Shown piece after piece: positions 22,803 to 53,692 of a stretch of DNA of 59,112 nt (position 1 is the stretch's first letter; each line of letters begins with the position of its first letter). The stretch spans positions 1 to 59,112 of IMG/VR virus record IMGVR_UViG_3300030333_007526. The stretch is one strand, 5' to 3'. A program made the position numbers and the translations under genes. The DNA is from a virus. The notes below the pieces were generated by a model that was given only the letters and a program-made list of their open reading frames with translations, ran no database searches and was not told the origin of the DNA.

Positions 22803-24850
22803 AGTTTTTCTACTCTAAACCTAAACGTCTGATTTTGTTCAACCCATGACGATAAAGAATTGTCATAAAACGAAAACGCAAATGCATATTCATACCCAGG
22901 TTCTAATAATGTCATGTCAAAATTAAAATAATTACCAGACACGTCATAAGATAAATACGTGTGGTTATCGCTGCCTGTTCCATAATCAACAGCGCGATAA
23001 TTATCTAATGTTCTAAAAACTCTATATGAAGCGCTATGGATTGTATTTGTTTCGACTTTTGATATAGCTTTTGTGTGAATATTGGGGCTCCAATTTTTTT
23101 GTCTGACAAATAAATTGAATCTTGCAGTTTCATCGGCTCGATAGCTATTGCGTAAATTTGTAATGGCCAGATAATTTCTTTCTGTTTGTATGGTGTTTAA
23201 GGTGTCTTGTAAAATTGGTTTTATAGAGCCAGTATGAAATCTTCTTTTTAAATGTTTTCCATCTTCTAAGCTTCCACTTGACCACACATCATATAATGTT
23301 AAGATTGGATCAAATCCTGTAGCCAGCTCAGATGCCGTAATAGCTATAGAAGCTGAATAAATTCCTGTAGAAACCCACCCTCCAGTTGCAAAATATTGTA
23401 AAGTAACATTTGCCCCATCGGTTGTGCCCGCTGTTGATTGGCTATTAATTAAAAGCGCACCACTAGAACCAGTTGGGGCGGTATCATCGACATTTCCAGA
23501 AAACAAACTAACCATAACAGAGCCAGTTTTTTCAATTCCAACAATGTCTTTTAGTTGTCCACGCACATAGTTGTATAAATAAATTGTATTTAAATTATCT
23601 GCTGGTGATGCTACTGAGCTACTATAATAAAAATTACCGCGATCATCTCTTAAGGTATCATCCCAACGTGCTTCAATATATGGACGTTTAAAAAAGTATT
23701 GACTTTTTCTTCCAAAAAATCTTTTAATATAATATGATGTTGTGGAGCCGCTTGGATTTTGTATCAAGCCGTCATCGTCTGCGCGGCCAGAAACTTTTCC
23801 AGCCAAGTAATCAATGGCTCCTGACGCTTCTTGACTAGAGGTAAGCATTATTCCAATACCATAATTAGAATATGTGCCAGCTATCCATTGCTCAACCCAT
23901 GGAGTAATATCAATTTCAACATCTTCTGTTCCGTCTGCTAAAGTTTGATCAAAGATGTAAATTGGTGTATCTACCTGCTTGTTGGAGCCGGCAGAGTACG
24001 TATGATATGAGCCGCCTGCTAGCAATGTTCCGCATATATCTGACCAGTAATTTACAGTAGCTGCTCCAAATTGCGTAGTAGCAGTTATTACACTATCGCT
24101 AATTGCTGTGCCGGCAAAGTTTGTACTCTGTTGATTAAGTGTTGCGTGATTCATTGTTAATGTTACAACGGCACCAGAAGAGGTAGCAGTAATATTCAAT
24201 GTACCAGCATCATCCGCCGCATTAATAGCTGCAGCAATATTTGTAGCAAATTGTGTTGCGTTTTCTGCTGCGTTTGCAAAAGCAATTTTTGTTGCTGTGG
24301 ATGTCGAAATAGTATTATCAATTGTAAAAGATACTGAATTATCGTCGGCATCTAAAATTGTTAACACTCTTGTGTTGGCTTGGCCGGCTGTTTTACTTAA
24401 CGCTGTTAGGGTTGCTTGTGCTCCAGTATTTCCACCGCTGGATGCTGTCATCCAATTGCTACCTTCATTGCCAAGCGTAAGATCTTTATAGCTTTCCATA
24501 TCAAGGCCCACGCCTTCTTGCCATGATTGAGACACCATCATAAAAACATATTTAGCATCTTTTGGAACGGTTTTTGTATGAGATGCGTTAAACATTCGTA
24601 AATAAAAATTTACACTTCCGCTTGCTGGGATTAAATCACTTGTACGATCTGTAGAAATATCAGTTATCGGAAACTGAACTAGAGCGCGAGATAGTTCTGC
24701 AGAACTTGTTGAATATCTTCCATAAATTGAAAACACATCTAAGACATCAGACGCACCCATGTTGGCGCCGGTTGCCCTAGTAGATAAATCTGGTCGATAT
24801 GCGTTCGCAATCGTTGTATCAGCGCTTGCTGTGTAGCGTTTAAGTGCCAT
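22799..24850 (-). CDS. Tail protein with DNRLRE/CBM-like domain and inserted module
   Basis: A 683-residue protein. The first 140 residues (DTTIANAYRPDL, then SRALVQFPI and YVFMMVSQSWQEGVGLD) follow the pattern of DNRLRE or CBM96-like beta-sandwich domains that bind carbohydrate or sit in surface proteins. That domain is interrupted at about residues 145-262 by a Thr/Ala-rich module (SVSFTIDNTISTSTATKIA, FATNIAAAINA, VVTLTMNHATL), related to one in the 493-residue protein. The host domain resumes with NYWSDICGTLL and WVEQWIAG. The C-terminal 150 residues (YLAITNLRNSYRADETARFNL) may form an attachment or Ig-like domain. It overlaps gp6 by TAATG and the giant wedge gene by ATGA. It is probably a wedge-bound surface-binding protein; this is inference. 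Confidence 0.6.
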   Translation of the reverse strand: MALKRYTASADTTIANAYRPDLSTRATGANMGASDVLDVFSIYGRYSTSSAELSRALVQFPITDISTDRTSDLIPASGSVNFYLRMFNASHTKTVPKDAKYVFMMVSQSWQEGVGLDMESYKDLTLGNEGSNWMTASSGGNTGAQATLTALSKTAGQANTRVLTILDADDNSVSFTIDNTISTSTATKIAFANAAENATQFATNIAAAINAADDAGTLNITATSSGAVVTLTMNHATLNQQSTNFAGTAISDSVITATTQFGAATVNYWSDICGTLLAGGSYHTYSAGSNKQVDTPIYIFDQTLADGTEDVEIDITPWVEQWIAGTYSNYGIGIMLTSSQEASGAIDYLAGKVSGRADDDGLIQNPSGSTTSYYIKRFFGRKSQYFFKRPYIEARWDDTLRDDRGNFYYSSSVASPADNLNTIYLYNYVRGQLKDIVGIEKTGSVMVSLFSGNVDDTAPTGSSGALLINSQSTAGTTDGANVTLQYFATGGWVSTGIYSASIAITASELATGFDPILTLYDVWSSGSLEDGKHLKRRFHTGSIKPILQDTLNTIQTERNYLAITNLRNSYRADETARFNLFVRQKNWSPNIHTKAISKVETNTIHSASYRVFRTLDNYRAVDYGTGSDNHTYLSYDVSGNYFNFDMTLLEPGYEYAFAFSFYDNSLSSWVEQNQTFRFRVEKL

Positions 24851-26646
24851 TATCTAATATTTCCTGTAAAATCAACATCTGGAAATTTGATTTCAAAAAT
24901 TGCATTTTTTGGGCAAATTAATTTTGTTCCATTTGGAGACATATTTTTATTAATAAGTATGCTGTTAGATGAGTAATTAGTACCAATTTTAGGTACAATT
25001 TGCACTAATGCAACATCAACTACAGAATCAATTTTATTGAGTTCTTTATAAACTTCTGAAATGTTTAAGTGTTCACCGATGTAAAATTTAGTTTCAAATT
25101 TTCTTTTTAATGCGCTGATACATTCCTCCAAGACTTCATGCTTGTTTGCATTCGGGGTCGCTTGCACAACAAAATCAATACCAAGGTTGATTATAAATGG
25201 ATCTAAAATATCAATTGTATCATTAATCATCCTATATTGATTTAGCCAAATTTTTAAATTATTTTTAATTGTTCGATTCAATAGCATTAATTTATCTGTA
25301 GGGTCTTGAGCTATGACATACATATTTAAGTTTCTTTTCATTGAGTCTGGATCTCTTTGAACGCTGACTCTTTTAACGGAACCAAATTTTTCTGGCATTC
25401 TTAAAGCAATGTTTTCATAATCAGCTTGAGTGACTGCCCTATTTTGAGTGGGAAAGGTATCAAAAATTTGTTGTTTAAGCTCAAGCATTCCAACAGTCGA
25501 TGCATCACCGATTATAGGAGTCTCATTAACAACTTCTAAAGACGCCTCAACATCTTGTATTTTTGTTGAAGATAGTTTTTGTACATCAGAAAAATTATAC
25601 TTAGCGTTTACAACTTTGTTTATTGCTCCAACACCAGCGCTGTTGTTTCTTCCAGAAAGTGTTCTGTATGCCACTGTGATTGTAGTATTTGATGGGGCAA
25701 TTCCAAAATTAGAATTAAGAGAAAGTCTTGTTGGGTCAAATGCTATATCAGTGGTGTAGTTTTTTCCAAATAAATCAATAGCCATTGATTGCGGCTCAGC
25801 CACAACATTGCCAGCGCTTTCGTCTCCAGAGCCAAATTGTATAGTGGTGCTGCTTCTATTTCTGGTAGTTGTAAATTTTCTTGAAACTAGCATGGGTTTC
25901 AAAATAGACGGCACGTTATCATTCAAATAATTATTGTTGGAAATTTCTTTATAAACTATATCTTGAGACAAATAATCAACCTCAAAATATTCATTTCCTT
26001 GAGCATCTACAACTTTAATAATTTCTACAACATTAGGATCATTAATACTTATTGTTTTAAATCTTTCAAAAGGTCCAATATTATATGTATTTTGTTGTAA
26101 AATGCCAGATACAACATCTCCATAAGCTTTCACAGCGTAAAAAGTGGGGGCTCCTGTTGTATCATTAACCCTAGCTACAACTCTCGGATTAGTTGTAAGT
26201 CCAAAATCAACGTTTTGTGTCAAAATGTATGATATGTTATTTTTAGAAGTAAAGGTGGTGCCTCTTTGTAAAACTGGAGTATATAGCTGATCAGGGCCAA
26301 GCCCTGTGGCTGAAGCAGGTATTAAAACAAATAACGCAACTTTACCAAACGCAGAACTTCTAGCTCGTGGTTTATATCCAAGAGCCCTACCATGACGAGT
26401 AATATTTCCATATTGATATGCAGTATCTAAAAAACTTTCATTTACATTATAGTCAAGATAAAAAGATAGTTGATCTGCAACATATGCAACCGAGTCGATC
26501 ATTAGCGAACCAAAAGATCCTTCGCTCCAATCTTGAAATTTATCTGGATAAAATCTTTCAACTATTTCAAGTAAATCATTTCTTATTTCAGAAAATTCAC
26601 GACTTGTATATTTTATTGGTACTGATTTATTTGAATCTTTTGGCAT
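24850..26646 (-). CDS. 6: Baseplate wedge subunit gp6 (baseplate J family)
   Basis: A 598-residue homologue of T4 gp6 (660 residues), the protein that forms the inner ring of the contractile baseplate and links its six wedges. The diagnostic N-terminal block is present: YTSREFSEIRNDLLEIV, then GSFGSLMIDSVAYVADQLS, and YLDYNVNESFLDTA within the first 80 residues. The C-terminal part has the gpJ-type QADYENIALRMPEKFGSVKRV stretch (shown here in part) followed by a domain for ring contacts. It lies directly after the gp25 gene, the same order as in T4. The start follows a TTTCCTCTC-complement purine stretch (AGAGGAAATTGC) that serves as ribosome site. Identification is firm for the family. Confidence 0.9.
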   Translation of the reverse strand: MPKDSNKSVPIKYTSREFSEIRNDLLEIVERFYPDKFQDWSEGSFGSLMIDSVAYVADQLSFYLDYNVNESFLDTAYQYGNITRHGRALGYKPRARSSAFGKVALFVLIPASATGLGPDQLYTPVLQRGTTFTSKNNISYILTQNVDFGLTTNPRVVARVNDTTGAPTFYAVKAYGDVVSGILQQNTYNIGPFERFKTISINDPNVVEIIKVVDAQGNEYFEVDYLSQDIVYKEISNNNYLNDNVPSILKPMLVSRKFTTTRNRSSTTIQFGSGDESAGNVVAEPQSMAIDLFGKNYTTDIAFDPTRLSLNSNFGIAPSNTTITVAYRTLSGRNNSAGVGAINKVVNAKYNFSDVQKLSSTKIQDVEASLEVVNETPIIGDASTVGMLELKQQIFDTFPTQNRAVTQADYENIALRMPEKFGSVKRVSVQRDPDSMKRNLNMYVIAQDPTDKLMLLNRTIKNNLKIWLNQYRMINDTIDILDPFIINLGIDFVVQATPNANKHEVLEECISALKRKFETKFYIGEHLNISEVYKELNKIDSVVDVALVQIVPKIGTNYSSNSILINKNMSPNGTKLICPKNAIFEIKFPDVDFTGNIR

Positions 26647-26658
26647 GCAATTTCCTCT

Positions 26659-27027
26659 CTATGTGGTGACCTGCAAATTATCACGTATTCCTAATCTTGG
26701 AATGCTATATTTAATGGTTAATCCTAATGTACTTGTGTCAGGCGATGAAGAATCGAAAATGATATCGTTAATTTTTACAGCTGGTAAATAAATATTTACC
26801 TGTTCTGTTATTTTTTGCTGTATAGCGCCAAAAACGTTCTCTCCAAAATTAGAAAATAAATACTGCTTTAGGCCAACTCCATATTCAGGAACCATTACTC
26901 GCTCGCCAGGCATGGTTAAAATTAACATTTTTAAATTTTGCCTAACAAGCTGTTTAAAAGTTATAATTGAAGTAAATCCTGTTCCCTCATCAAGGGTTAA
27001 AGGTATTGATATTCCTAATCTAGACAT
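26659..27027 (-). CDS. 25: Baseplate wedge subunit gp25 (GPW/gp25 family)
   Basis: A 122-residue protein, near the 132 residues of T4 gp25, the small wedge protein of contractile tails and type VI secretion that binds gp6 and connects baseplate to sheath. The family signature is clear: TFKQLVRQNLKMLILTMPGE followed by RVMVPEYGVGLKQYLF, matching the conserved Glu-Pro-Arg-like loop and the G-L-x-x-Y-L-F helix. The C-terminal part alternates hydrophobic residues (VKINDIIF, LGLTIKYSIP), consistent with the ferredoxin-like beta sheet. A GAGG ribosome site lies 8 bases upstream. It is encoded 12 bases before gp6, as expected for a gp25-gp6 operon. Confidence 0.92.
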   Translation of the reverse strand: MSRLGISIPLTLDEGTGFTSIITFKQLVRQNLKMLILTMPGERVMVPEYGVGLKQYLFSNFGENVFGAIQQKITEQVNIYLPAVKINDIIFDSSSPDTSTLGLTIKYSIPRLGIRDNLQVTT

Positions 27028-27045
27028 TATAAAACCTCAATATAA

Positions 27046-30000
27046 TTATTCCTTTTCACAAATATTCCCTTTAGAATCAAACGGATTGTTTCTAAATTTG
27101 CTTTTTTTCCACCATGGCAATAGTGGTTTTCCAACCGCAGGCTTTAAATTGGCTCTAAGATTATTCATAAACGCTTCGCCAACATCAGGTAAATCAAATT
27201 GTCCAGGCCGGAGCCTGGCAGAATTATAATGACGCCTAAATTTTCTTTTAATTGTTTTTTTAGTTCTTTGTAATAATTCTTGATCCCATGAATCCCATTC
27301 GGTGACAAATAGCCCACCAATAATTCCAGGTTGCCTATCTGTATAGCTAGCCCATCCGTCAGTACCAATCGAACTTCCAACAACACTTGTTGAGCCATCA
27401 GCATTCTCGAATTGTTCAAATTCGGCGCGCATGCCGGGTTTTTGATCTGCTGAAGTTGAGCCGGCTCCAAAGGAATCATTGTTTGCAACAGTTACTTCGC
27501 CAATTGACGGCAAAAAACCCATTCCGTTATAAATTGCTGCTAGTGACGTAAACTTATTTAATGGAAAAATGTATCGATAAACTAACTTAAATATTTTATC
27601 TTCTTTTAACAAATTTATTAAACACAATAAAAGTTTGCTATTTCCTTGCAATGGTATAAATTGACCAATTGTGGTATCCAAAGAATCTACTTCAACAGAA
27701 GTTAGCTCATAAGTTTCGCCATTAATAATAATTGAAAAACTTATACCATGTCTAACGCCTAGTTCTCCAGTTAAAGAAATTGCCCTATTATCTTCATCAC
27801 GCACAACTTCCATTGTTCCCGGATAAATATCTGAAATGTTTAAAGCATTATCATTTTCTAAAATTAATTCTACTGCATCATTTGGAGAATATCTAACTCC
27901 ATCAATTAAAGTGTATTTTTGTAAGTAGAAGGGCATTTCAGTTGTCGAATCTATTGAATCTCCGTGGTTTGCACAATCACCAATTGGAACTATCATTTTT
28001 GTAGAAAATGGTTTTAAAACATTATGTGCTGCTTGTGTATGAACATCACCGGCCATATATTTTAGAGTGCCATCATCTTCTTCATGCGTATGATAGTAGC
28101 CAGAATATACATCTCCTTTTGAATATTCTGATTCTTCATCATTGACCTCATAAACACTAAACTCATTTCCAGCAGTGTACAGGTTTTCTAAACCTGCCTC
28201 GCTTGGTAGCTCCTCACTAGATTCAATTAAATTTTCTTCAGATATATCTATAGTCGAATCATAAACAAAATTAGAAAAAAGATAAGATGCCAAATCATCA
28301 ATTTCTGGCTTAAGGCCAATGGTTTCTAAGTTTGTTCGCAACGATGAAGACATGTTATTCAGTTCATCAATAACCATCTGGGTTAAAACTTTTTTAGCCA
28401 ACTTTCTTGTTTTATAAATGGAGTTGAGTCTACTTTCTTGTCGATAATTTTTTAATAGTTTTGATTGTTTGATTCTTCCGGATTCTTTTTCTGCTTGTAA
28501 ATCCATCCTATTGGGATAATAAAAATTCTCTTGCAAATCATTTAAGCCTAATAAAGCATCTAAAACATATTGAGTTGGTTCTTGAATAATTTCCAAATCG
28601 ACGTTTCTAGCATATGTTTGAACTGCTTGTTCTAAAAACGAATACCAAAATTCGTCATCTTTAAATAAACTTAAACGCTCTTCAGAATCACTATCTGCTC
28701 CAGATAAAACTTTTTCCATATCTTCAACTATAAAAGCAGCATACAAGCCACTAAAAACATTAGGAAAATCAATTTTAAATTTAGAAAAAGTAGCCAACGA
28801 TCTAACAATATGACTTGTAATAAATATTCTTATTGTTGATATTAAAAGACCTTCAATTGTTGCTGCAGAATCTCTAGACAATAATTTATTATACGCAAGT
28901 TCTGTTACACAATCTTTATCTGTTGCTTTTAGGCGATCATCATGTGGAATTTTTGGCAAACGATCGTTAACAATTTCTGAAATTTCAGAAAAGTTTACTA
29001 AATCTACTTTTTTATTGTCTTTGCAATGTGTAATTTCAGGAAATAAAACATCAATCATACCCATCCAGCCTTCGTTTTTAAGAGGAGAAATATAAACTGC
29101 TGGATTCATATATGTTCCGCCAAATGTGTTTGGATCCAAATAGAACACTCTGTTTGTGTCATCGCGTCCTTCATTTTCAATTTGATATTGCATTCGACTC
29201 ATTCCTAAAATTGAATCGTCTTTAATGATATTACGATATATTGTATTCCCATCTTCGTCTTCTGATTCTATTTCAGCTTCTCCGTATGGCATTCCAGAAT
29301 CTCGAAAGCCGGGACCTAAAACATATTCTACATCGTCTTCAGATAAATTATCGTATTCTGCCCCATAAGTAAATGCGGCCTCATTATCTCCAACTTCAAA
29401 TAAAATTTCTTTCATTAAATCATTCATTAAAGAATCGTAAAAAGACTTTACTTCGTCTAATTCTATTTCAGCGTTTTTATTGGTTATTAATTCTCTCAAC
29501 AAAACAACTTGAGGAATATAATCAGATTTTTGTCTAAAACATTCATTAAATTTAGGATAGTTTTCATCTTGTATATCATCAATTGTGGTGTCTTCAAAAT
29601 ATATTTCATCATATCTTTCGGTAACTACTTTACTTTCATCATTATCAGATCCAAATGGATTTTTCAAACCATCGTCAACTACATTTGAAGCATTAGGGGA
29701 TACAATTTTAGCGCCAGGATTGAATTTTTTTTCAATTAATAATCTTATATTATCTTTAGGGCGATTCACTGTGACTGGAGTTGCTGCTGGTTGGCTTCCG
29801 CCGGGAATATTTCTGGTTGTATAAAGATCTGAAATAAAAACGCTTATATCAAATCCATATGAATAGGCAGAATTTGATGAATTTTCTCCGTATCTATATC
29901 CTTTCGCATTATCTTTAAAAATTAATTTCATGTCTGGGGTGGATTTTCTGGCCTTTCTTACTAATTTTATTTTTTTAGATTCCCACTTAATTGATGTTGT

Positions 30001-33000
30001 AGAAAATAAACCTAAATCAGGCAATTCCCATAGATTTACTTGTGGCGTGTCATAAAGACCACTAGTAAGCCCCATGGTGCTGAAATCGACTAAAGATACT
30101 TCTTTTTCTCCAATACTATTATTGCTTACAAAATTTAAAGATTCATGTAAATCAGAAGTTGTTGCCCATCCAAGATCATTAAAAGAATCATTAATTTGAT
30201 ACTGAAGCCACTCTGCAACTTTAGAAGGATATGCTCCTCTTTGTCTTTGAATCATCGGAACACGACCATCATTATCAGAGGCTCCGTCAATATAAAAATC
30301 AACGTATCGGTTTTGAAAAAAGTTTTTTCTGTGGTGTGCCGTGAGTGGATTACCAAGAGTATCGGACATAATCATGTTAATCATACCCCAGCGACTTTGA
30401 CCAGGGCCATTGCCTATAAAATCGGTTGTGTACGCAAGTTTAATTCTTTTCATTTCATTGTCAATAACATCCATGGAAGAATTCATCATATCTTCTGTTT
30501 CAAAAGGAATCAAACCATTGTTGCAGCCAGGATCTGATACTATATCAGGTAGCGCTAATGCGTTTGGAACACCAAGATGAACTAAATCATTTATCTCATC
30601 TAACGAAGCTCTAAGTCTATCTCTATCTTGCTCACACATTAACGCCGCTTGATCCGGAGTCGCACGACCAGACAACAAAGAAGCTCTTCTTTCACAAAAA
30701 TCTTCAAGGTCTTCTTCAGTGGCACATAATGAGGGATTAGCTGGTAAATTACTAATTGGTTCTTGTTCCAGCTGATCTGCCATGGCATCTCGCAAATCAA
30801 CAGGCATTAAATTACCTATATTATTGAAAAAATCTTCAATGCTTTGTTTGTTAGAAACATTGCCTCTAAAGTCTGAATATTCAAATTCTATCAGTTGATC
30901 GATAATTTGTAAAAATTCAGCTGATGGATTTCCTAACATTGCTGACATAAATTCTGATTGCGTTGTGGATGATGATATATCTCCAACAAATTGATCTACT
31001 CTTTCTTGATTTGCCAAAGCTTCAGGATTGAAACCAAGTTTTTCAAAAAGATCATTAATTGTATCATTGATTTGATTTTCATCAGCGTCATCGCCACAAA
31101 TAGTGTTTCTAATAATATTTTTAAATTCATCTCTTCCGCCAAATCCAGAATTATCACCTGCAATAGCGTTAGCGCCTAATGAAGTTACTGCTCCTAGTCC
31201 TGTACATAAAGCTGAACCAAGTAGCTTACATATCTTAGATAACATCTGAATAATAATTTTTAATATTAATTCAACCATGCCAGCCTTTAAAAGATCAAAC
31301 AAAATTTTTGGAAAATCAAATATTTCTGGTATCCAGCCAAAAGGATTTTGAATTTTTGGAGATACTATATTGAAGGGCGTGCTGCAGTCTACAAGTCTAA
31401 GACTTTGCATAAAATCTGGTATAGATGGCTCAATCACAGGGTCCTGGGGACAATCCATAAATTTAATTGCTTTTGCGATTAAACGAGCGCCTGGATATTT
31501 GTTAAGCATATTTAATACCAAAATCATTTCGCCAGAATAGTAATCCACCAAGGCCAATATATAAGCCTCAATTAATACATTCTTATTTAAGGTAGTGTTA
31601 AGGCCGGCCTCTGATTGTGTAAACTTTACATTGCTTAAAAGTGTTTTTCTATCTGTTTGTTGTGGGGTCGAAGTTATGCTAGTGTCTTGCGTTCTATTTG
31701 AACTTGGGGTAGTTTGATTTCCTTCTGAAAGATCTTGTGGTGTTTCGTTTTCTTCAGGTATATCACTCGTTTCATTAAAAGGATTTAACGAATAAGCTTG
31801 TAGAGATTCTTGATTAGCAGTTCTTGAAATTTCTTCTGCAAGACCTCCTTCCGGAAAAACTTCTCCGTTTTGAAGTTTTCTTTCGGCTAATAATTGTATT
31901 TCTCTCGCTGCGTTTGGTGGTAATGTTTGAGTAAAGAAATCTGTTAAGTTTTCCATTGACATTCCTTTTAAAGCAGATTTTACAATACTTGATGCCGCTT
32001 CTTCAAAAGTTAAGCCTTTCATTAAACAATTTGATGTTTCTATTAATAATTCAAACATTCCGCAAAGTTTAATTTTGTCAAGGCCCTCTGTCCAAATATC
32101 TTCTAATGAAAAAGATGAAAATCCATTTGTCATACCAGCGGAATCTAAAATACCAGCACACAAACTAGAAAATATTTGATCTTCATCTTCCATTGTAGCA
32201 AAAGCTTGCTCAGTAGCCATTTCGAGTATTGTTTTATTCGCGCGATCAACATCGGGTGTAACCTGCAGCCCTAAATCTACATCTTCTTCCTCAAGCTCAT
32301 CAACTTCGTTCAAGCAATTGTTTTGTTTGAATTTTGCAACTATGGCATCTCCAATACTAAACGTTGAGTCAAGCAAATCTTGTCCTAGTTGTTTACTTTC
32401 TTTTGCTAGTGTAGCATTAATACAACTACGTGAATTTGGCTGAGGCTGTACCGCTTGAACAGTGTGATAGACTGGAGGAAACGTGTGTTTTACAATAAAT
32501 TCTTTCCAGTCTGGGCCTTCACGCGATTGAAGTTCTGCATCCATTTCATTTAAATTGACAAAATATGCCACGGCAGTTGGATCTCTAAACGCTTCTTTTT
32601 TGCTTAATGATTTAACTTTTTTACTTCCATATATGATTGATTCTTCGCCACAACCAATGGTAAAAACTTGAATTGTTTTTAATTTATATTTTGAATCAAA
32701 TTCAAATTTTAATTTATCGACTTGCTCTTGAAAAAGACCACCTCCGCCTAGTCCAACTATATTAAAGCCTCTAGCGGATAAAAAAGAATCTATTTCATTA
32801 GCTATAGAGCCAAGTGTGGATTTTGAAAATTTTCCCGAATCACCATAATTATGAAGATTGAATACCGCATTACTATCTTCAATAAGAATATTCCCACTTT
32901 CAAGTGCTCTAAACGCAGTTAAATATTTTGAATATAAGCGTAATGCTTTTCTTACTCTTATAATTTTTGGTTTTATATCTGCTGCATTAATTGTCATAGA

Positions 33001-33549
33001 TATACTGCCGCCAGTGGATATATTATCTTCTTCGTCTTCGTCATCTGAAGATTCTCCTCCGGTGTCGTCTGGCACGCTTTGTAAATCAGCAAACGGAATG
33101 GAATATAATAAAGTTAATCTTGAATTAGGTCGAGAATCTAAATAAAATTGTTCATATTCTAATTTTGGTAATAGTAAAATGCGAGAATTTTCTGAAATTT
33201 CTTTGTTGTTTTCTGCTAAAATAGACTCCAATGCAGCAACAGCATATTCTTCAAATCTTGCATTTGTTCCTTCGGCAGCTTCTTCTTCAGTGACTTCAGT
33301 TTTCTGTAAAATAGAATAATCCATTGTTGATGTGTATCTAGTAACAACAGATACTTGATATTTGCATTCTTTTTCGTTAAAAAATGCTGAATCAATGTCC
33401 AAATCTTTCCAGTTTGGAACAGAAGCGTATGGATTTTTTACACAATCAGGGCACTTAAATGATTCTGGTACGCTTACCACCTCATTACAAACGTCTATAA
33501 GTAAATCGCCATCTTTGTCTTGTAATTTTAAAATATCAGATATTGTCAT
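27046..33549 (-). CDS. Giant tail/baseplate protein of unknown function
   Basis: A 2167-residue protein that I cannot place. It lies between the hub/spike genes and gp25, so it is almost certainly a virion protein. Visible features: a KCPDC pair near residue 35, an acidic low-complexity loop near residue 170 (ESSDDEDEED), many scattered Cys residues, a long helical stretch to about residue 700, a Thr/Ser-rich linker near 650 and one hydrophobic stretch (MVELILKIIIQMLSKICKLL, then a Gly/Ala-rich region). The C-terminus is basic (KKTIKRKFRRHYNSARLR). A single tape measure would show long coiled coils, which are not obvious. Alternatives are a hub-wedge connector or an ejected internal protein. 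An AGGT site precedes the ATG, and a T4-late-like TATAAATA lies 40 bases upstream. Confidence 0.5.
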   Translation of the reverse strand: MTISDILKLQDKDGDLLIDVCNEVVSVPESFKCPDCVKNPYASVPNWKDLDIDSAFFNEKECKYQVSVVTRYTSTMDYSILQKTEVTEEEAAEGTNARFEEYAVAALESILAENNKEISENSRILLLPKLEYEQFYLDSRPNSRLTLLYSIPFADLQSVPDDTGGESSDDEDEEDNISTGGSISMTINAADIKPKIIRVRKALRLYSKYLTAFRALESGNILIEDSNAVFNLHNYGDSGKFSKSTLGSIANEIDSFLSARGFNIVGLGGGGLFQEQVDKLKFEFDSKYKLKTIQVFTIGCGEESIIYGSKKVKSLSKKEAFRDPTAVAYFVNLNEMDAELQSREGPDWKEFIVKHTFPPVYHTVQAVQPQPNSRSCINATLAKESKQLGQDLLDSTFSIGDAIVAKFKQNNCLNEVDELEEEDVDLGLQVTPDVDRANKTILEMATEQAFATMEDEDQIFSSLCAGILDSAGMTNGFSSFSLEDIWTEGLDKIKLCGMFELLIETSNCLMKGLTFEEAASSIVKSALKGMSMENLTDFFTQTLPPNAAREIQLLAERKLQNGEVFPEGGLAEEISRTANQESLQAYSLNPFNETSDIPEENETPQDLSEGNQTTPSSNRTQDTSITSTPQQTDRKTLLSNVKFTQSEAGLNTTLNKNVLIEAYILALVDYYSGEMILVLNMLNKYPGARLIAKAIKFMDCPQDPVIEPSIPDFMQSLRLVDCSTPFNIVSPKIQNPFGWIPEIFDFPKILFDLLKAGMVELILKIIIQMLSKICKLLGSALCTGLGAVTSLGANAIAGDNSGFGGRDEFKNIIRNTICGDDADENQINDTINDLFEKLGFNPEALANQERVDQFVGDISSSTTQSEFMSAMLGNPSAEFLQIIDQLIEFEYSDFRGNVSNKQSIEDFFNNIGNLMPVDLRDAMADQLEQEPISNLPANPSLCATEEDLEDFCERRASLLSGRATPDQAALMCEQDRDRLRASLDEINDLVHLGVPNALALPDIVSDPGCNNGLIPFETEDMMNSSMDVIDNEMKRIKLAYTTDFIGNGPGQSRWGMINMIMSDTLGNPLTAHHRKNFFQNRYVDFYIDGASDNDGRVPMIQRQRGAYPSKVAEWLQYQINDSFNDLGWATTSDLHESLNFVSNNSIGEKEVSLVDFSTMGLTSGLYDTPQVNLWELPDLGLFSTTSIKWESKKIKLVRKARKSTPDMKLIFKDNAKGYRYGENSSNSAYSYGFDISVFISDLYTTRNIPGGSQPAATPVTVNRPKDNIRLLIEKKFNPGAKIVSPNASNVVDDGLKNPFGSDNDESKVVTERYDEIYFEDTTIDDIQDENYPKFNECFRQKSDYIPQVVLLRELITNKNAEIELDEVKSFYDSLMNDLMKEILFEVGDNEAAFTYGAEYDNLSEDDVEYVLGPGFRDSGMPYGEAEIESEDEDGNTIYRNIIKDDSILGMSRMQYQIENEGRDDTNRVFYLDPNTFGGTYMNPAVYISPLKNEGWMGMIDVLFPEITHCKDNKKVDLVNFSEISEIVNDRLPKIPHDDRLKATDKDCVTELAYNKLLSRDSAATIEGLLISTIRIFITSHIVRSLATFSKFKIDFPNVFSGLYAAFIVEDMEKVLSGADSDSEERLSLFKDDEFWYSFLEQAVQTYARNVDLEIIQEPTQYVLDALLGLNDLQENFYYPNRMDLQAEKESGRIKQSKLLKNYRQESRLNSIYKTRKLAKKVLTQMVIDELNNMSSSLRTNLETIGLKPEIDDLASYLFSNFVYDSTIDISEENLIESSEELPSEAGLENLYTAGNEFSVYEVNDEESEYSKGDVYSGYYHTHEEDDGTLKYMAGDVHTQAAHNVLKPFSTKMIVPIGDCANHGDSIDSTTEMPFYLQKYTLIDGVRYSPNDAVELILENDNALNISDIYPGTMEVVRDEDNRAISLTGELGVRHGISFSIIINGETYELTSVEVDSLDTTIGQFIPLQGNSKLLLCLINLLKEDKIFKLVYRYIFPLNKFTSLAAIYNGMGFLPSIGEVTVANNDSFGAGSTSADQKPGMRAEFEQFENADGSTSVVGSSIGTDGWASYTDRQPGIIGGLFVTEWDSWDQELLQRTKKTIKRKFRRHYNSARLRPGQFDLPDVGEAFMNNLRANLKPAVGKPLLPWWKKSKFRNNPFDSKGNICEKE

Positions 33550-33557
33550 TTTTTTAC

Positions 33558-34691
33558 CTAAGTTGCATAAACAGATCTACTACAAATATATTTATATCCA
33601 AATGGTTCACAATAATTAGCTGCCCACATATTTGCATTAATACGAGTTTGATATGTGCTATTGATCACCATTTGCACTAATTGAATTGCTGACGCTGATC
33701 CTGCTACTCCTTTATGTGCTATATTGAGCGGAAATAAATCAAGCCCTAATGCTGCATTTGCTGCGGCTTGAATAGTGGCCATATTTTGCACTGATTGTAT
33801 TAATGATTCAAAAAGAGTAACAAGTTCTTTTAAACCATCCGCTAAATTTTGACTTCGAGTCACTGGCTGGATTACATTAATAAATTGTTGTTTTTGCGGA
33901 ATTGATCTGTTTCTCATAAATGTAAGAAAGTCTTTTGTAAATACTTCTCTAGTACCTTCAACATTCCCTGCTATAAGTTCAATTTTTGGCTGGATTTGTT
34001 TTATTGTTCCTCCAAGAGAGTTGGTTTCTCCATTTTGAAATCCTTCAAAAGGAGCTTTTCCAGTAACAATTTTAACGCCCTCTCTGCCAACAAGTCTAAC
34101 AGCATCTGCCTTAATGCCTATAGCTGATCTAGATTTAATATTACCAGCAATACCATCAACAATTCCAAAATTATTATCAACATCTGTTAATTGGCTAATG
34201 TAAATTCTTGCAGCGTCAGCACCAAAATTAGGATTTACAATAGTTGATCTTGCTGTTGTGTTAACATTTTGTGCAGAGGACATTCTGCCTACTACAATAT
34301 CAATAGTGTCACAATTTAAAGCTCCTTTTCCTCCGTAACCAGAGGCAAGAGTTGAGGGCCTATCTTTGCCAAAAACAATAAAAGCATTTTTTTTGCTTAT
34401 AACCTTTTGGCCAGGAGCAGGTCTTAAAGAAATTCTCGGAGATAAACCATCTGTTTGAAATAAACCTGAATCAGATGGAAGATCTCTTACTGGTAGACCT
34501 GCCTGTAATCTGTCAAATAAACGCAAGCGAGGACGCGGGGAAGGCGTATCTGGATCTGAATCTGTGCCTTGATTTGTTCTTTGTGCTCTTAAATTTGCCG
34601 ATTGTTCTCTATCTCTTACAATATTAGATTCTTCGCTCTCTCTTTGATTAAGACCGAATCTATTGCCGTCAAAAATTTTACGTGGTGACAT
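33558..34691 (-). CDS. Baseplate central spike candidate (gp5 C-terminal beta-helix-like)
   Basis: A 377-residue protein. The N-terminal 80 residues are Arg/Asp/Ser-rich and probably disordered. From about residue 120 a repetitive beta pattern follows (DTIDIVVGR, then RSAIGIKADAVRLVGREG and VKIVTGK), which is the kind of repeat found in gp5 and VgrG spike helices. The C-terminal 100 residues are helical (GLKELVTLFESLIQSVQNMA). It comes directly after the two OB-domain lysins, where a spike fits: T4 gp5 joins OB domain, lysozyme and helix in one chain, and here the helix would be a separate protein. The spike assignment is an inference from repeat pattern and position; it could also be another hub component. 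Confidence 0.5.
   Translation of the reverse strand: MSPRKIFDGNRFGLNQRESEESNIVRDREQSANLRAQRTNQGTDSDPDTPSPRPRLRLFDRLQAGLPVRDLPSDSGLFQTDGLSPRISLRPAPGQKVISKKNAFIVFGKDRPSTLASGYGGKGALNCDTIDIVVGRMSSAQNVNTTARSTIVNPNFGADAARIYISQLTDVDNNFGIVDGIAGNIKSRSAIGIKADAVRLVGREGVKIVTGKAPFEGFQNGETNSLGGTIKQIQPKIELIAGNVEGTREVFTKDFLTFMRNRSIPQKQQFINVIQPVTRSQNLADGLKELVTLFESLIQSVQNMATIQAAANAALGLDLFPLNIAHKGVAGSASAIQLVQMVINSTYQTRINANMWAANYCEPFGYKYICSRSVYAT
33589..33596 (-). promoter_or_regulatory. Candidate late promoter TATAAATA before the giant tail gene
   Basis: On the minus strand the sequence reads TATAAATA, identical to the T4 late -10 element recognised by gp55-type sigma factors, one of which is encoded at 37711-38415. 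It lies 39 bases before the ATG of the 2167-residue gene, which would leave a leader of about 33 bases ending in an AGGT site. It sits inside the last codons of the spike candidate. In DNA this AT-rich the octamer will also occur by chance, and the other occurrence I noted (57845) is not placed as a promoter, so the call is weak. Confidence 0.25.
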
Positions 34692-34713: not shown

Positions 34714-36177
34714 CTATGTTGCTTCTTTACAGGCTATCTCAGAATACATCTTTGGCATCGTAAAATCCACTGCATCTTCTAATACTGAATTAATCGCTTC
34801 TTTTGTGGTTTTACCAGCAAGTTTTGATTTACAATTATTATACCATTCAATTGAATAAGTATTGCTTGAAGGATTACCAGCAATAAATTTTTTAAACCAA
34901 TCTTTCATTATAGCAATAAATCTATTTGGCCGGTCGCGACCGGTTGGCCAAGAACTTGGTATTGTCGGATCAAGGAATGGATTGTACTCCGTTCCTGCAG
35001 CTTCAGCAGCTTGAATTTGTGCGGTAGTCCAGCCGCCTGTGGTGTCTGGTTCTCTAGTAGTTGAAGTACCATCAGGAGAAAGTACAGTGCGGCTGTTATT
35101 TGCCCAGAACTCAAAATGAATATGATCGCCTAAAGAGGCGCCTGTGTTGCCAACTTGGCCTATCTGCATTCCTATTATAACTTTAGTTCCTACTTCTATT
35201 CCTTGCGTGACAGAATACAAATGAGAAAATTGAACCGAATGAGATCCAGCTCCAAGGCCGGCCTTGATTTCAGAAGTGCATTTTATTCGTACAAAATTGC
35301 CTCTGCCGCCGCCACAACACCCGCTAAAGCCGGCATCAACGCACGGGTCCGGGGCTATACAAAGCGATTGTCCAGATCTGGGATACACATCCATTACCAC
35401 TCCATTGCATAGTGAATATGCCGGTGGATTTCCACGAACATTTTGAATATCAACTCCATTGTGCCACTTATATCTGCCTGGTGGAAGTTCTCTATACCCC
35501 CAATCAGCGCCAGATGACGAACCAACTGTGTGGCCGGGGGCTAATAAGTCTTCTGGCCTTGTAGCAAATGAAGTTTCGCTCAACACTGGAGCAGCTGCTC
35601 CTAAAGCTGAAGTAGCTGCGGCGCCACCAAAAATTGTTCTTGTTGAGGCACACAATTCAGCGTCAGTTAAGGGCGCGCCAACATTATTGTCGGCTAAGCC
35701 AACAAATTTACCAAATTGTAAATTATATGAGTGCACATTTTTTTCTAACTCTACTCTAACTTTGTCACCAACGTTAGGAAGACCCTCGCTTGAACGGGTA
35801 TAATCGTCTGAAGAAACAAACGTTGTATGCAAATTGACAACTCGCATAATTGCTCTTTGTTCTTCGGTAGTGGCGCCGTTCATTTTACAAGGATCTGGCA
35901 AGTAGTCATGCGGTGATGGGTTTCCTAAAATTCGTGCTTTAAAGGCAAATTTGCTCAGGCGACCTTCTTCAGTGTTTCTTCTTGTTTGGACATCACCTTC
36001 GTCAGTTATTTGAGCGTCGACAAGATAAAATGGCCTGCTTAGTATAATTGCTTCGAAGACGGTCTTGTCGCCAAAAGAATCATATTGCATTCTTCTCCTA
36101 ACAGAATTAGAATATAAATCCATTGCCTCTTCTGGTCTTGAAAAATCGGTTGCATTTAAAAATTCTCTAACGGGCAT
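34714..36177 (-). CDS. Tail-associated lysin: gp5-like OB domain fused to M23 metallopeptidase
   Basis: A 487-residue hub protein predicted to cut peptide cross-links in the cell wall during entry. Residues 1-186 are about 91% identical (17 differences by eye) to the start of the preceding gene product and resemble the gp5 OB domain in the GDKVRVELEKN then FGKFVGLADN strands. After a linker the M23 domain shows His239 and Asp243 (KWHNGVDIQ), His319 (QFSHLYS) and the DHIHFEF motif at His352 and His354, the full zinc and catalytic set. The domain contains a Cys-rich insertion near residue 280 (CVDAGFSGCCGG). A 110-residue tail follows. The gap to the previous gene is 21 bases, with TTTAATTTTCC. 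No signal peptide is present, as expected for a virion enzyme. Confidence 0.85.
   Translation of the reverse strand: MPVREFLNATDFSRPEEAMDLYSNSVRRRMQYDSFGDKTVFEAIILSRPFYLVDAQITDEGDVQTRRNTEEGRLSKFAFKARILGNPSPHDYLPDPCKMNGATTEEQRAIMRVVNLHTTFVSSDDYTRSSEGLPNVGDKVRVELEKNVHSYNLQFGKFVGLADNNVGAPLTDAELCASTRTIFGGAAATSALGAAAPVLSETSFATRPEDLLAPGHTVGSSSGADWGYRELPPGRYKWHNGVDIQNVRGNPPAYSLCNGVVMDVYPRSGQSLCIAPDPCVDAGFSGCCGGGRGNFVRIKCTSEIKAGLGAGSHSVQFSHLYSVTQGIEVGTKVIIGMQIGQVGNTGASLGDHIHFEFWANNSRTVLSPDGTSTTREPDTTGGWTTAQIQAAEAAGTEYNPFLDPTIPSSWPTGRDRPNRFIAIMKDWFKKFIAGNPSSNTYSIEWYNNCKSKLAGKTTKEAINSVLEDAVDFTMPKMYSEIACKEAT
35620..36177 (-). repeat. Duplicated OB-domain coding segment, copy in M23 lysin gene
   Basis: Codes for the first 186 residues of the M23 lysin. 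The partner copy is at 36865-37422. Many stretches are also nearly identical at DNA level, for example those coding for the end of the domain (residues about 145-186). This indicates a duplication kept similar by recent origin or gene conversion. Confidence 0.85.
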
Positions 36178-36198
36178 TTTAATTTTCCTTATACTAAA

Positions 36199-37422
36199 TT
36201 AACAAACTGCACTACCGATTTCCACATAGTAAGTGGTTGGAAACGTTCCATTTGCATCTGCAAGCTCTGTGCCATCACGCATATCTCTAGCGCCTCCGGC
36301 GCCTCTTAAGTGAGCAGAAGCTAGCATTCCTCCTACATCGTTAGGATTGCTTAAATCTAACTTATTGTTGCGACGAAGATAAGAAAAATGAGTATTTGAA
36401 TGACGACGGATTGCGTCTTCTTGGCAACCATTTTTGTTTGCAAGATAATCAGCTTTGTTGTTAACTCCGTTTTGGCCAGTCCAATTAGAATCATTGTCAA
36501 TAACGCTATCAGTGGTAGGTCGGCATGCCTCAGATTGACCTTTGCAGTCGCCCATAGAATTCCAACTTCCAGTTCTTAAATACCCAGCAGTCTCTAAAGC
36601 AGCAACTCCAAATTGATAATGCCCTAAATATCCCGCTGAGTTTACCGTAGAATAAGACGGCGCTTCGTGAGCGCGAACGGCAGCTAACCAATTCTCCCAC
36701 GAAGTTGGTCCTAAGTATTGTTCAATGTCTGTTGAAGACTGGTTGCCAGGAGGGCATTGTCTTGTTAATTTAAAACAATTAAAATCTATAGTTCTTCTTT
36801 CGCCAGCAGTTCCCATTCTTTCACCACAAGCGCCAGCAGTAGAATATGTTAAAGATGTAGAAAGCGCACCACCAAAAATTGTTCTTGTTGAGGCGCAAAG
36901 TTCTTCATTAGTTAAAGGAGCGCCAACATTATTATCTGCCAAACCAACAAATTTACCAAATTGTAAATTGTACGAATGAACATTTTTTTCTAACTCTACT
37001 CTAACTTTGTCGCCAACATTTGGAAGACCGGTACTAGATCGGGTGTAGTCATCTGAAGAAACAAACGTTGTATGCAAGTTAACAACTCGCATAATTGCGC
37101 TTTGTTCTTCTTCTGTTTCTCCATTCATTTTGCATGGATCAGGAAGATAATCATGTGGAGATGGATTTCCTATAATTCTAGCTTTAAACGCAAACTTTGA
37201 TAGTCGGCCTTCTTCTGTGTTTCTTCTTGTTTGAACATCGCCCTCATCGGTGATTTGGGCATCAACAAGATAAAATGGTCTGCTTAATATGATAGCCTCA
37301 AAAATTGTTTTTTTACCAAAAGAATTATATTCTACTCCCCTTCTAATTGTATTAGAGTACAAATCCATTGCTTCATTAGGACGGGAAAAATCAGTTGCGC
37401 TTAAAAACTCTCTAACAGGCAT
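36199..37422 (-). CDS. Tail lysin: gp5-like OB domain fused to lysozyme/transglycosylase-like domain
   Basis: A 407-residue paralogue of the M23 protein that follows it. Residues 1-186 form the shared OB-like hub domain. After a Cys-rich linker, residues 235-400 look like a glycan-cutting domain: WLAAVRAHEAPSY, with Glu253 as the candidate catalytic acid, then N261SAGYLGHYQFG and ALETAGY, the layout of soluble transglycosylases and goose-type lysozymes (E, then G-x-x-G-x-x-Q-F). A later block (ANKNGCQEDAIRRHSNTHFSYL) follows the helical pattern of these enzymes. Role: opening the murein during penetration together with the peptidase. The start is an ATG with an AGGGAGAAACTTAAA leader. The exact enzyme class is not certain; the duplication is. 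Confidence 0.75.
   Translation of the reverse strand: MPVREFLSATDFSRPNEAMDLYSNTIRRGVEYNSFGKKTIFEAIILSRPFYLVDAQITDEGDVQTRRNTEEGRLSKFAFKARIIGNPSPHDYLPDPCKMNGETEEEQSAIMRVVNLHTTFVSSDDYTRSSTGLPNVGDKVRVELEKNVHSYNLQFGKFVGLADNNVGAPLTNEELCASTRTIFGGALSTSLTYSTAGACGERMGTAGERRTIDFNCFKLTRQCPPGNQSSTDIEQYLGPTSWENWLAAVRAHEAPSYSTVNSAGYLGHYQFGVAALETAGYLRTGSWNSMGDCKGQSEACRPTTDSVIDNDSNWTGQNGVNNKADYLANKNGCQEDAIRRHSNTHFSYLRRNNKLDLSNPNDVGGMLASAHLRGAGGARDMRDGTELADANGTFPTTYYVEIGSAVC
36865..37422 (-). repeat. Duplicated OB-domain coding segment, copy in lysozyme-like gene
   Basis: Codes for the first 186 residues of the lysozyme-like lysin, matching 35620-36177. Only 17 of 186 encoded residues differ, with 10 of the differences within residues 8-40 and one between residues 41 and 101. 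After Ala186 the two proteins no longer align. Confidence 0.85.
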
Positions 37423-37423
37423 T

Positions 37424-37714
37424 TTAAGTTTCTCCCTGAATTAAATCAAACAAGCTATCTTTATCTTTTGCAGAAAGCTCCATAGTATCCTTCTGTCCTT
37501 TATGACGGATACCAATTAATTTAACTAGTTGCTCGTTAGATCTTTGAAGAGTCTCAATATGCTTAGCTGCAACTGGGCTGAGGTATTTATTTTGTTCTGC
37601 GTCAGACGCTATTTGGTTGGCAATTTCATTTAAGAACTCTCTAGCGGCTTTTCTATCGTTTCTAATGTTGTCAAGCGCTTCGTCTATTAAGGATTCTAAA
37701 TCTTTGCTGCTCAT
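37424..37714 (-). CDS. Small helical protein of unknown function
   Basis: A 96-residue, highly charged, all-helical protein (SKDLESLIDEALDNIRNDRK, then AKHIETLQRSNEQLVKLIGI). I chose the ATG at 37714, which overlaps the stop of the sigma factor gene as ATGA, over an in-frame start at 37732. It lies between the late sigma factor and the hub genes, separated from the hub gene by one base. Small helical proteins at such places can be terminase small subunits or tail assembly factors, but no motif supports either here. It is very probably translated, given the coupled start; the function is unknown. Confidence 0.6.
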   Translation of the reverse strand: MSSKDLESLIDEALDNIRNDRKAAREFLNEIANQIASDAEQNKYLSPVAAKHIETLQRSNEQLVKLIGIRHKGQKDTMELSAKDKDSLFDLIQGET

Positions 37715-38415
37715 AACTCTCCATTTTCCCAACCTTGCTTGAACACGCTATATTTTTTACGAAACTTTTTTAACGAATTGACAATTTGTTTTGTATTCAA
37801 ACCGGTAATTTCTCTTAGGTATAAATAAATAGCCTTTTTGTTAAAAATATCGATGTCCTCTTTTGATTCAAAAAGTATTATGATTGCTTTGTATACTTTT
37901 AAATCGTTCTCTTTCATAGAAGACGCGTCCCATGATTTTAATTCAACATAAAATGATTGCCAAAATTCATCGTGCTCTCTTTCTGTTAGATAAGAAACAT
38001 TGGTTGAAAGATATTCTTCCTCAAATTTCTTAGAAATATTACCATAATCAACTTCGCGTTTGTTTTGTTTTTGTTGTTTTTTAACTTTATGAATAAACCA
38101 ATTTTTTGTTATAACAGAAAAGTAGGAGAATGCTTTAGAACCTTTGCTTGGATCATACTTATCAAGAATGGTCATTAGCCATATTTTACACTCATCTCTT
38201 AAAGAATCACAATTTGGCAAATTAGTAAATTTATAAGTAAATACGATTTTGTCCACCATTTCATTAAACGCTGGTTGAATCCATTTGATATAAAGATCTG
38301 TTCTAACTTTAATACAATTAGTGCTTGCGTATTGTATGATAGCGTCTTCGTGTTCTTGAGTAAAATAATAATTTTTACGTTTCGAGCGCGTTCTCTTCTT
38401 CTTCTTGATTGTCAT
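37711..38415 (-). CDS. 55: gp55-like late sigma factor
   Basis: A 234-residue protein resembling T4 gp55 (185 residues), the phage sigma factor that directs host RNA polymerase to late promoters with a TATAAATA -10 box. The sigma region 2 signature is at residues 87-112: KYDPSKGSKAFSYFSVITKN followed by WFIHKVKKQ. The N-terminus is very basic (KKKKRTRSKRK) and the C-terminus is a helical domain that may bind the clamp-coupling machinery. The start lies 41 bases inside the preceding gene, and the stop overlaps the next start as ATGA. It lies at the head of the virion block, where a late regulator is useful. A different small sigma-70-type protein is the only alternative. Confidence 0.85.
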   Translation of the reverse strand: MTIKKKKRTRSKRKNYYFTQEHEDAIIQYASTNCIKVRTDLYIKWIQPAFNEMVDKIVFTYKFTNLPNCDSLRDECKIWLMTILDKYDPSKGSKAFSYFSVITKNWFIHKVKKQQKQNKREVDYGNISKKFEEEYLSTNVSYLTEREHDEFWQSFYVELKSWDASSMKENDLKVYKAIIILFESKEDIDIFNKKAIYLYLREITGLNTKQIVNSLKKFRKKYSVFKQGWENGEL

Positions 38416-39197: not shown

Positions 39198-40148
39198 TTA
39201 CCATTTAAAATTGTTTTTATAATAATCAACTATGTTGATAATCTCTTGATCAAATTGTTTTTTTGGCTCCCAGCCAAGTAATCGGAGCCGGCTGTCGTCT
39301 AATGCATAACGAACATCTTGTCCTTCTCTAACATGTGAAAGATCAAGATATTCATCCCAGTTTCTTTTTTCCTCAAAGTAACATTCAAAAATTTTAATCG
39401 CAGTATCAATATTTTTTTGTTCAAATCCACCAGCAACATTATAGATGTTATCAACGGCACCCGACTCAATTAGTGTTATTACTGCCTCTGCTGTATCATC
39501 TGAGTGCAGCCAATTTCTAATTGGCTCTCCTTTGTCGTGTAGCTTAATTTTTTTACCACGCATCAAGTTTTTGACCACTAAAGGAATTAATTTTTCTGGA
39601 TATTGACCGATGCCGTAATTGTTTGTTGGGCGTAAAATTATATAATTTATTCCATAAGTTCTTGCCCATGCAAGTATCAACATATCAGCAGCAGCTTTTG
39701 ATGCAGAATATGGATTGCTAGGTTTAAGAATGTCTGTTTCGCAATGAACACCCAAGTCAATATCACCATATACTTCATCAGTGCTAAAATGAAAAAATAT
39801 TGGTCGATCACTAACGTTGTGCTGTTTGTTACGAATAAGATCTAGTAAATTTTTAACTCCAACAATATTAGATTGCAAGAAATCTGAGCTATCAATAATA
39901 CTATTTCCAACGTGAGACTCAGCAGCTATGTTAATTACGTAATCACAATCAGGTAAGTGCTTTAATCTTGCTATATCTTTTCTTATAAATGAAAAATTTT
40001 CATAATTATTAAATTCATCTAAAAACTCAACATTGGCTGCATATGTGCATTTATCAACACCATATACCTTCCATCCTTTTTCAAGGCACTTTCGAGTTAC
40101 ATAAGAACCAATTAGACCAAGACAGCCCGTAATAACAACTAGCTTCAT
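39198..40148 (-). CDS. rfbB: dTDP-glucose 4,6-dehydratase-like (RmlB family)
   Basis: A 316-residue short-chain dehydrogenase of the RmlB type, which converts a nucleotide-activated glucose to the 4-keto-6-deoxy form, the entry step to deoxysugars. Seen: GCLGLIGS nucleotide-binding loop, VDKCTYAANVEFL, NIAAESHVGNSI, the STDEVYGDI motif with the catalytic Asp-Glu pair, PYSASKAAAD with the Tyr and Lys, NNYGIGQYPEKLIPLV and a C-terminal GWEPKK. It is slightly shorter than E. coli RmlB (about 360). No RmlA, RmlC or RmlD lies in the window, so the sugar nucleotide may differ. It is the last gene of the carbohydrate island, one base after the cupin gene. Confidence 0.85.
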   Translation of the reverse strand: MKLVVITGCLGLIGSYVTRKCLEKGWKVYGVDKCTYAANVEFLDEFNNYENFSFIRKDIARLKHLPDCDYVINIAAESHVGNSIIDSSDFLQSNIVGVKNLLDLIRNKQHNVSDRPIFFHFSTDEVYGDIDLGVHCETDILKPSNPYSASKAAADMLILAWARTYGINYIILRPTNNYGIGQYPEKLIPLVVKNLMRGKKIKLHDKGEPIRNWLHSDDTAEAVITLIESGAVDNIYNVAGGFEQKNIDTAIKIFECYFEEKRNWDEYLDLSHVREGQDVRYALDDSRLRLLGWEPKKQFDQEIINIVDYYKNNFKW

Positions 40149-40517
40149 CTAGTCTCCCTTGATGATCCTATGGCTATCTGAATCAAAATGCTCTGTTGAA
40201 AATTCAAATAATTCACTATCTTCAAGTGCGACCATTTGGTGTCTTAAACCGGTGGCTACATGAAATTTTTCTCCTGGATTAAGGATGATTTGATTTGCTT
40301 GCTCAATATCATCATTTCTAGAGTAGTAGACAATCATCTTGCCCGATTGTAAATAAAAAACTTCATCTTTAATCTTATGAAAGTGCCAAGAACACCGCTT
40401 GCCTTTGTTAAAAAACAAAAGCTTACCGCAGTACTCAGGACAATTTACAATCCAACGTTCCCATCCCCAGCCCTTTGGAACATGCTTCATTGGTAGTGGT
40501 TGTTTCTTTTTGCTCAT
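40149..40517 (-). CDS. Cupin protein, sugar-phosphate isomerase-like
   Basis: A 122-residue single-domain cupin. The first cupin motif fits exactly: WHFHKIKDEVFYLQSG has His45, His47, Glu52 and Gly59 in G-x5-HxH-x4-E-x6-G spacing. The second motif appears as LNPGEKFHVATGLRHQMVAL. Such small cupins in surface-sugar clusters act as isomerases or epimerases or bind sugar phosphates, and the closest pattern is the C-terminal domain of type II mannose-6-phosphate isomerases (the opening VPKGWGWERWIV resembles their KPWG-type start). The start overlaps the HAD gene stop as ATGA. The substrate cannot be told from sequence. Confidence 0.75.
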   Translation of the reverse strand: MSKKKQPLPMKHVPKGWGWERWIVNCPEYCGKLLFFNKGKRCSWHFHKIKDEVFYLQSGKMIVYYSRNDDIEQANQIILNPGEKFHVATGLRHQMVALEDSELFEFSTEHFDSDSHRIIKGD

Positions 40518-41241: not shown

Positions 41242-41242
41242 T

Positions 41243-44211: not shown

Positions 44212-44216
44212 TGTGA

Positions 44217-50817: not shown

Positions 50818-50819
50818 AT

Positions 50820-51356: not shown

Positions 51357-51358
51357 TT

Positions 51359-53684: not shown

Positions 53685-53692
53685 AATTAATC

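Follow-up and report, generated by a model that had tools for sequence, protein, structure and literature searches.

Two hub-type genes within a baseplate block

The window considered here, the whole of the 59-kb virus record IMGVR_UViG_3300030333_007526 (59,112 nucleotides, a single metagenomic contig from an uncultured phage related to T4), carries two neighbouring genes that are arranged head-to-tail on the minus strand. ORF B (36199..37422, 407 aa) joins a predicted hub-type OB N-domain to a lysozyme-like C-domain predicted to cut glycan, and ORF A (34714..36177, 487 aa) joins the same type of N-domain to an M23 endopeptidase C-domain. The 21-nt gap between them (36178..36198) provides ORF A with its own ribosome-binding-like sequence, a purine-rich AAGGA immediately 5' of its ATG. 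The original prediction held that the two genes share a 186-residue N-terminus with only 17 differences, and coordinates, alignment and BLASTP show this description to be exact and the twin genes to be real. The N-domains (aa 1-186; 36865..37422 in ORF B and 35620..36177 in ORF A, both minus strand) are 91% identical, with differences at residues 8, 16, 25, 26, 29, 30, 31, 33, 37, 40, 84, 102, 104, 108, 131, 172 and 173, and similarity ends after residue 186. The BLASTP alignment (91% over aa 1-183, E 6e-122) rules out chance similarity of the N-domains, and the same comparison detected no similarity between the C-termini.

The enzyme domains had been labelled M23 and transglycosylase-like, and both labels are correct. 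The C-terminus of ORF A is a Pfam Peptidase_M23 domain (E 6e-10, 39.6 bits against a curated cut-off of 28.7) that spans aa 239-362 (35092..35463, minus strand) and in which the zinc-site motifs are complete, namely HxxxD (HNGVD, 239-243), H319 and HxH (HIH, 352-354); no close relative that could be the source of this domain was found in viral contigs with the patterns used. The C-terminus of ORF B has no Pfam match, but residues 236-405 (36208..36717, minus strand) match phrog_27932, 'baseplate hub subunit and tail lysozyme' (E 5e-21), a domain that is part of gp5 in T4-like phages of Rhizobium and Agrobacterium, phiM9 among them, and the predicted catalytic Glu253, in the motif RAHEA, lines up by eye with KESSG of phiM9. 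Neither protein matched the T4-type (GH24) lysozyme family in Pfam or PHROG, and 'lysozyme-like glycosidase' is probably the safer label for the domain of ORF B; in a model of full-length ORF B the lysozyme part is poorly predicted. In both proteins the cell-wall hydrolase lies in the same chain as the OB domain, and both chains end after the enzyme, with no C-terminal beta-helix needle. The usual targets are peptide cross-links for M23 enzymes and glycan for lysozyme-like domains. A and B are most likely both gp5-like hub lysins, cutting peptide and glycan, respectively.

The twins are located in a baseplate block whose arrangement is conserved among relatives, and its genes, from gp55 to the gp6-type wedge subunit, lie on the minus strand. 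Immediately downstream is a 377-aa spike-like protein (33558..34691) with the conserved core IGIKAD.VR.IGREGIKIVTG, which also directly follows the hub slot in relatives. Position and motif suggest that it is the separate counterpart of the C-terminal needle of gp5, although its profile had no significant match to T4 gp5C or phiM9 gp5. It is followed by a 2167-aa protein (27046..33549), also present in relatives L004 and L005, that is probably a hub or baseplate component, by a gp25-like baseplate wedge subunit (26659..27027; phrog_261, E 9e-18) and by a wedge subunit matching gp6-type PHROGs (24850..26646; phrog_219, E 2e-23). Just upstream of the hub slot is a 102-aa conserved protein (37424..37732), found at this position in nearly all relatives, and then a gp55-like late sigma factor (37711..38415), which served as an anchor for finding relatives. 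The T4 late-promoter motif TATAAATA occurs 13 times in the window, not above the chance expectation of 9.2, and never just upstream of either twin. A host lookup with gp55 in bacterial and archaeal genomes gave no match. Directly upstream of gp55, at 39198-53711, the window carries sugar-nucleotide genes (an epimerase, a cytidylyltransferase-like gene and others), as do L001 and L005.

Fold and constraint of the shared N-domain

The original prediction of an OB-like shared domain is upheld at the level of predicted fold. An AlphaFold2 model of aa 1-186, built with 72 relatives, has a pLDDT of 76, with the core mostly at 85-95, and a five-stranded OB topology with a helix between strands 3 and 4 (elements predicted for ORF B: helix 15-35, strands 40-45, 77-84, 118-122, 139-146 and 151-161, and helix 104-114). 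Foldseek searches of the PDB returned OB-fold proteins and contractile-tail parts, all of them weak (E above 0.01, low TM-scores) and including the cyanophage A-1(L) baseplate (8kea_D), the phage P1 baseplate (9vzk_q) and P2 gpV (3qr8). The best match in a viral structure library was a 'Peptidase M23B' of an uncultured marine virus (E 7e-7), which presumably belongs to the same N-domain family. A profile of eight gp5 OB domains aligned co-linearly with the N-domain profile over 72 columns (P 5e-4, at a probability of only 33%), while none of the 72 N-domains matched the Pfam gp5/VgrG OB models or any other Pfam family. PDB sequence searches with P0002 and with the N-domain profile gave nothing useful. 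Among 50,697 cultured-phage records there was no direct homologue of the N-domain or the spike; tblastn likewise found no cultured relatives of the N-domain (within P0001/P0002), the spike or the 2167-aa protein, and cultured relatives of gp55 at no more than 33% identity. With moderate confidence, the model and the profile alignment point to a remote gp5-type OB domain.

The two copies are old. Over the shared part 110 of 558 bases differ, nearly all silently: 75 codons carry synonymous and 17 nonsynonymous changes, with dS about 1.6, dN 0.07 and dN/dS about 0.045. Because synonymous sites are close to saturation and the changes mostly silent, the duplication cannot be recent, which rules out a recent duplication or copy error as the origin of the twins, and both N-domains are under strong purifying selection. 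For comparison, the gp55 genes of the window and its relative L005 differ with a dS of 1.58 at 85% protein identity, and the hub N-domains of these two phages are only 45% identical, so that the twins are far more alike than orthologues from sister phages.

These observations bear on two further explanations. Endolysins, too, often contain M23 or lysozyme domains, as PHROG matches illustrate, and one twin might be the hub lysin while the other retained the N-domain but had come to serve as an endolysin or some other hydrolase outside the virion. This is improbable, given that an endolysin would need no hub domain, that both N-domains are almost identical and strongly constrained, that both genes lie inside the baseplate block, and that the copies in other tandems retain the N-domain too. 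It might also be supposed, the window being one metagenomic contig, that assembly had joined the hub genes of two strains. We regard such an artefact as barely credible: at only 80% DNA identity the twins differ more than a simple collapse would allow, other contigs contain unrelated tandems, and two of these tandems, L009/L010 and L047/L048, were each recovered in two contigs.

A swap site with one to three hub genes

To place the twins among relatives, 151 IMG/VR loci, many of them overlapping or from the same contigs, were fetched with gp55 and the downstream spike-like protein as anchors. The order gp55, a gene of about 100 aa, hub slot and spike-like gene recurs in about 97 non-redundant slots, 92 of which have both flanks present, and iterated profiles detect the hub N-domain in most of them. 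The C-termini of the hub proteins are highly diverse between relatives. Pfam searches of 100 C-terminal segments identified VanY (27), M23 (7), Amidase_2 (7), M15_4 (3), DUF2272 (3) and SLT (2) domains, with one each of muramidase, GH46, Phage_lysozyme2, CHAP, GDSL, OmpA and dual-specificity phosphatase (DSP). Domain swapping at the hub slot is shown by sequence identities that run in opposite directions within one protein pair: the C-domains of ORF B and of the first hub of L001 are 78% identical and their N-domains 20%. Close relatives by gp55 (80-85% identity) differ both in enzyme, with VanY in L005 and a weakly matched DUF2272-like domain in L007 (E 0.004), and in the number of hub genes, with three in L001, three in L008 and two in L009.

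The hub slots also vary in size. Minimal hubs of about 203-214 aa that lack an enzyme domain are found in L052, L064 and L156, and a few hub proteins exceed 1200 aa and carry two enzymes. L138 (5532-9800), L140 and L142 encode single hub proteins of about 1400 aa, of which that of L138 combines an amidase and an M23 domain in one chain, another way of joining two wall cutters. Other genes intervene at some loci. Between gp55 and the hub block of one large phage contig (L020, 10700-11707, and the same region in L021) lies a 335-aa protein. It combines domains of cytochrome c oxidase subunit II (COX2, E 7e-20) and of cytochrome c and is possibly a phage-encoded respiratory oxidase subunit. L153 (6766-8175) has a 469-aa protein of no assigned family between gp55 and the gene of about 100 aa.

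Most phages of the clade have one hub gene. The original prediction suggested a search for the same tandem in other phages, and the IMG/VR slots yielded tandems in six further lineages, giving seven with two or three hub genes (the window, L001, L008, L009, L047, L067 and L134). The M23 and lysozyme pair of the window is paralleled by phosphatase-like and Phage_lysozyme2 domains in L009/L010, by VanY and a hydrolase-like domain without a Pfam match in L134, and by a lysozyme-like domain (assigned by eye) and GDSL in L047/L048, where the N-domains, 45% identical to each other and located in the slot, are too diverged for the family profile. Three hub genes occur in L067 (SLT, VanY and OmpA), in L001/L016 (lysozyme, a bare OB domain and a third hub of no assigned type) and in L008 (two DUF2272-like and one endolysin-like, where the contig ends). 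The C-termini within each set are unrelated, except for the shared domain of the two DUF2272-like copies of L008. No genome has more than three copies, a number that matches the three chains of a hub trimer, although only three triples exist. The twin pair is thus one instance of a swap site shared across an uncultured clade, where as many as three copies and a wide range of enzymes occur.

In one hub of L009 (10958-12454) the N-domain is followed by a domain resembling tyrosine/dual-specificity phosphatases, in which the HCTHGADRT (CX5R) motif is intact. The third paralogue of L067 (13542-15203), beside the SLT and VanY hubs, carries an OmpA-type domain, a type that often binds peptidoglycan, and towards its C-terminus residues 488-533 again resemble part of the N-domain. 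The second hub of L134 (1224-2582, its true start probably near 1443) has an alpha/beta-hydrolase-like region without a Pfam match, in which GxSxG is recognizable by eye.

In the six sets detected by profile, N-domains match best to another copy from their own genome, with the exception of one L001 copy that matches L088 slightly better, and within-genome copies form clades with 96-100% SH-aLRT in the five sets scored (L067, with only one of its rows in the tree, was left out). On a gp55 tree of 88 rows the tandem state changes six times, and strong branches force at least three of these changes. Together, the within-genome clades and the changes on the tree indicate that tandems arose several times; gene conversion is an alternative to repeated duplication and would likewise imply matched N-domains. 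Tandems are a minority, in 7 of about 97 slots, and are scattered on the gp55 tree, as might be expected if a second copy were a transient, redundant duplicate heading for loss. We give this explanation very little credence, as the twins retain 91% protein identity with synonymous sites near saturation, both catalytic motifs are intact, and twins recur independently.

Hub assembly and relation to known systems

As far as is known, every contractile-tail phage has to breach the wall of its host at a single tip. The explanation we favour, at a probability of about 0.62, is that the twins are paralogous gp5-like hub lysins of a T4-superfamily myovirus that arose through duplication and C-terminal enzyme exchange and have kept matched OB docking domains. 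A single hub-lysin gene would have given rise to two copies, at least one of which acquired another C-terminal enzyme by exchange at the border between the domains; as a result, B would bear a lysozyme-like domain that cuts glycan and A an M23 domain directed at peptide. The tip of the tail tube would offer one docking site to both OB domains, with a needle supplied by the separate next gene lying below it, and these domains would have remained nearly identical because both must fit that site. Both twins would then be present in virions, and upon tail contraction the needle would pierce the outer membrane and the tethered enzymes would act together to open the peptidoglycan, B on the strands and A on the cross-links.

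Chains of A and B might share one trimer, as a mixed hub, or each might form trimers of its own. Because the docking surfaces match, a mixed trimer is possible, and by analogy with the VgrG proteins of type VI secretion systems (T6SS) it is plausible, at odds a little short of even. If both are hub lysins that form only homotrimers, a population of virions would contain M23 tips or lysozyme tips, a form of bet-hedging or of breadth in host range. Single-enzyme hubs are the rule among relatives, and 10 of the 17 differences between A and B fall within residues 1-40 (Fisher p 5e-4), a clustering that synonymous changes do not show, so that this segment could be a self-sorting element. The remainder of the domain (aa 41-186), including loops that are variable among orthologues, differs at only 7 of 146 positions and offers no obvious exclusive interface, and mixed hubs with different C-terminal effectors are known for T6SS VgrG, a precedent that favours mixing (PMC8668125, PMC10433429). 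On balance exclusive homotrimers seem rather unlikely. Under the favoured reading of the twins as paralogous hub lysins, a single virion may be equipped with drill tips of several kinds. A broader and tentative proposal, to which we incline somewhat less than to its negation, is that the clade encodes heteromeric puncturing hubs resembling those of VgrG, in which two or three OB paralogues at one tail tip would bear different envelope-attacking domains drawn from the swap site: glycosidase, endopeptidase, esterase-like, peptidoglycan-binding or even phosphatase-like.

In T4, gp5 is one chain with OB, lysozyme and beta-helix parts that is cleaved and sits as a trimer on gp27, and its lysozyme is thought to open peptidoglycan at injection (PMC3004832). 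The twins resemble it in having an N-terminal OB domain followed by a cell-wall hydrolase and in being encoded among baseplate genes. They differ in that T4 has one gene, with a T4-type lysozyme in mid-chain and the needle in the same chain, whereas here there are two genes with other enzymes, each placed C-terminally, and the needle-like protein is encoded separately. The marine T4-like Synechococcus phage S-PM2 (Kyanoviridae) has a large gp5 with an OB N-terminus, followed by a separate repeat-rich gene, S-PM2p213; hub and needle thus appear to be split as in the window, and a split needle is not new. Unlike the window, S-PM2 has a single OB gene. Its p213, annotated 'hub and tail lysozyme', was considered as a second tandem case and rejected, as it lacks an OB domain and is not a gp5 paralogue. 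The gp5 of phiM9 and Atu_ph04 (Pootjesviridae, phrog_27932) has the same lysozyme-like domain as ORF B, at about 34% identity, but a different N-terminus, a needle-like part in the same chain and another hub architecture. In pelagimyophages, gp5 clusters are far more divergent than the VrlC baseplate protein, which has been ascribed to differences in host cell walls, and the portions of that study drawn on here describe neither tandem paralogues nor an enzyme catalogue (PMC7029224). The gp147 hub of Bacillus phage 0305phi8-36 has been remodelled with exchangeable wall-degrading domains (PMC2147016), although it was a gp27-type hub that received them rather than a set of duplicated OB proteins. 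A search of the open-licence literature turned up no phage described as having tandem OB hub paralogues that carry different enzymes.

A further parallel is with evolved VgrG proteins of the T6SS, gp5-like trimeric hubs that have exchangeable C-terminal effectors and occur as several paralogues, one of them bare, and whose heterotrimers are supported genetically (PMC8668125). Like VgrG systems, the seven tandem lineages have several OB hub paralogues with different C-terminal domains per genome, and L001, with its lysozyme hub, bare hub and third hub, mirrors such a set. Unlike VgrG, in which gp27-like and gp5-like parts are fused and which acts in secretion, the twins have only about 186 residues before the enzyme and belong to a phage tail. 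The clade amounts to a naturally assembled collection of enzymes that share one carrier domain, and it enables a direct test of the co-assembly of tandem hubs. A tip made of a mixed trimer, with its glycan and peptide cutters matched, would be a phage counterpart of the VgrG heterotrimer and would show how such hubs could evolve through duplication and domain swapping.
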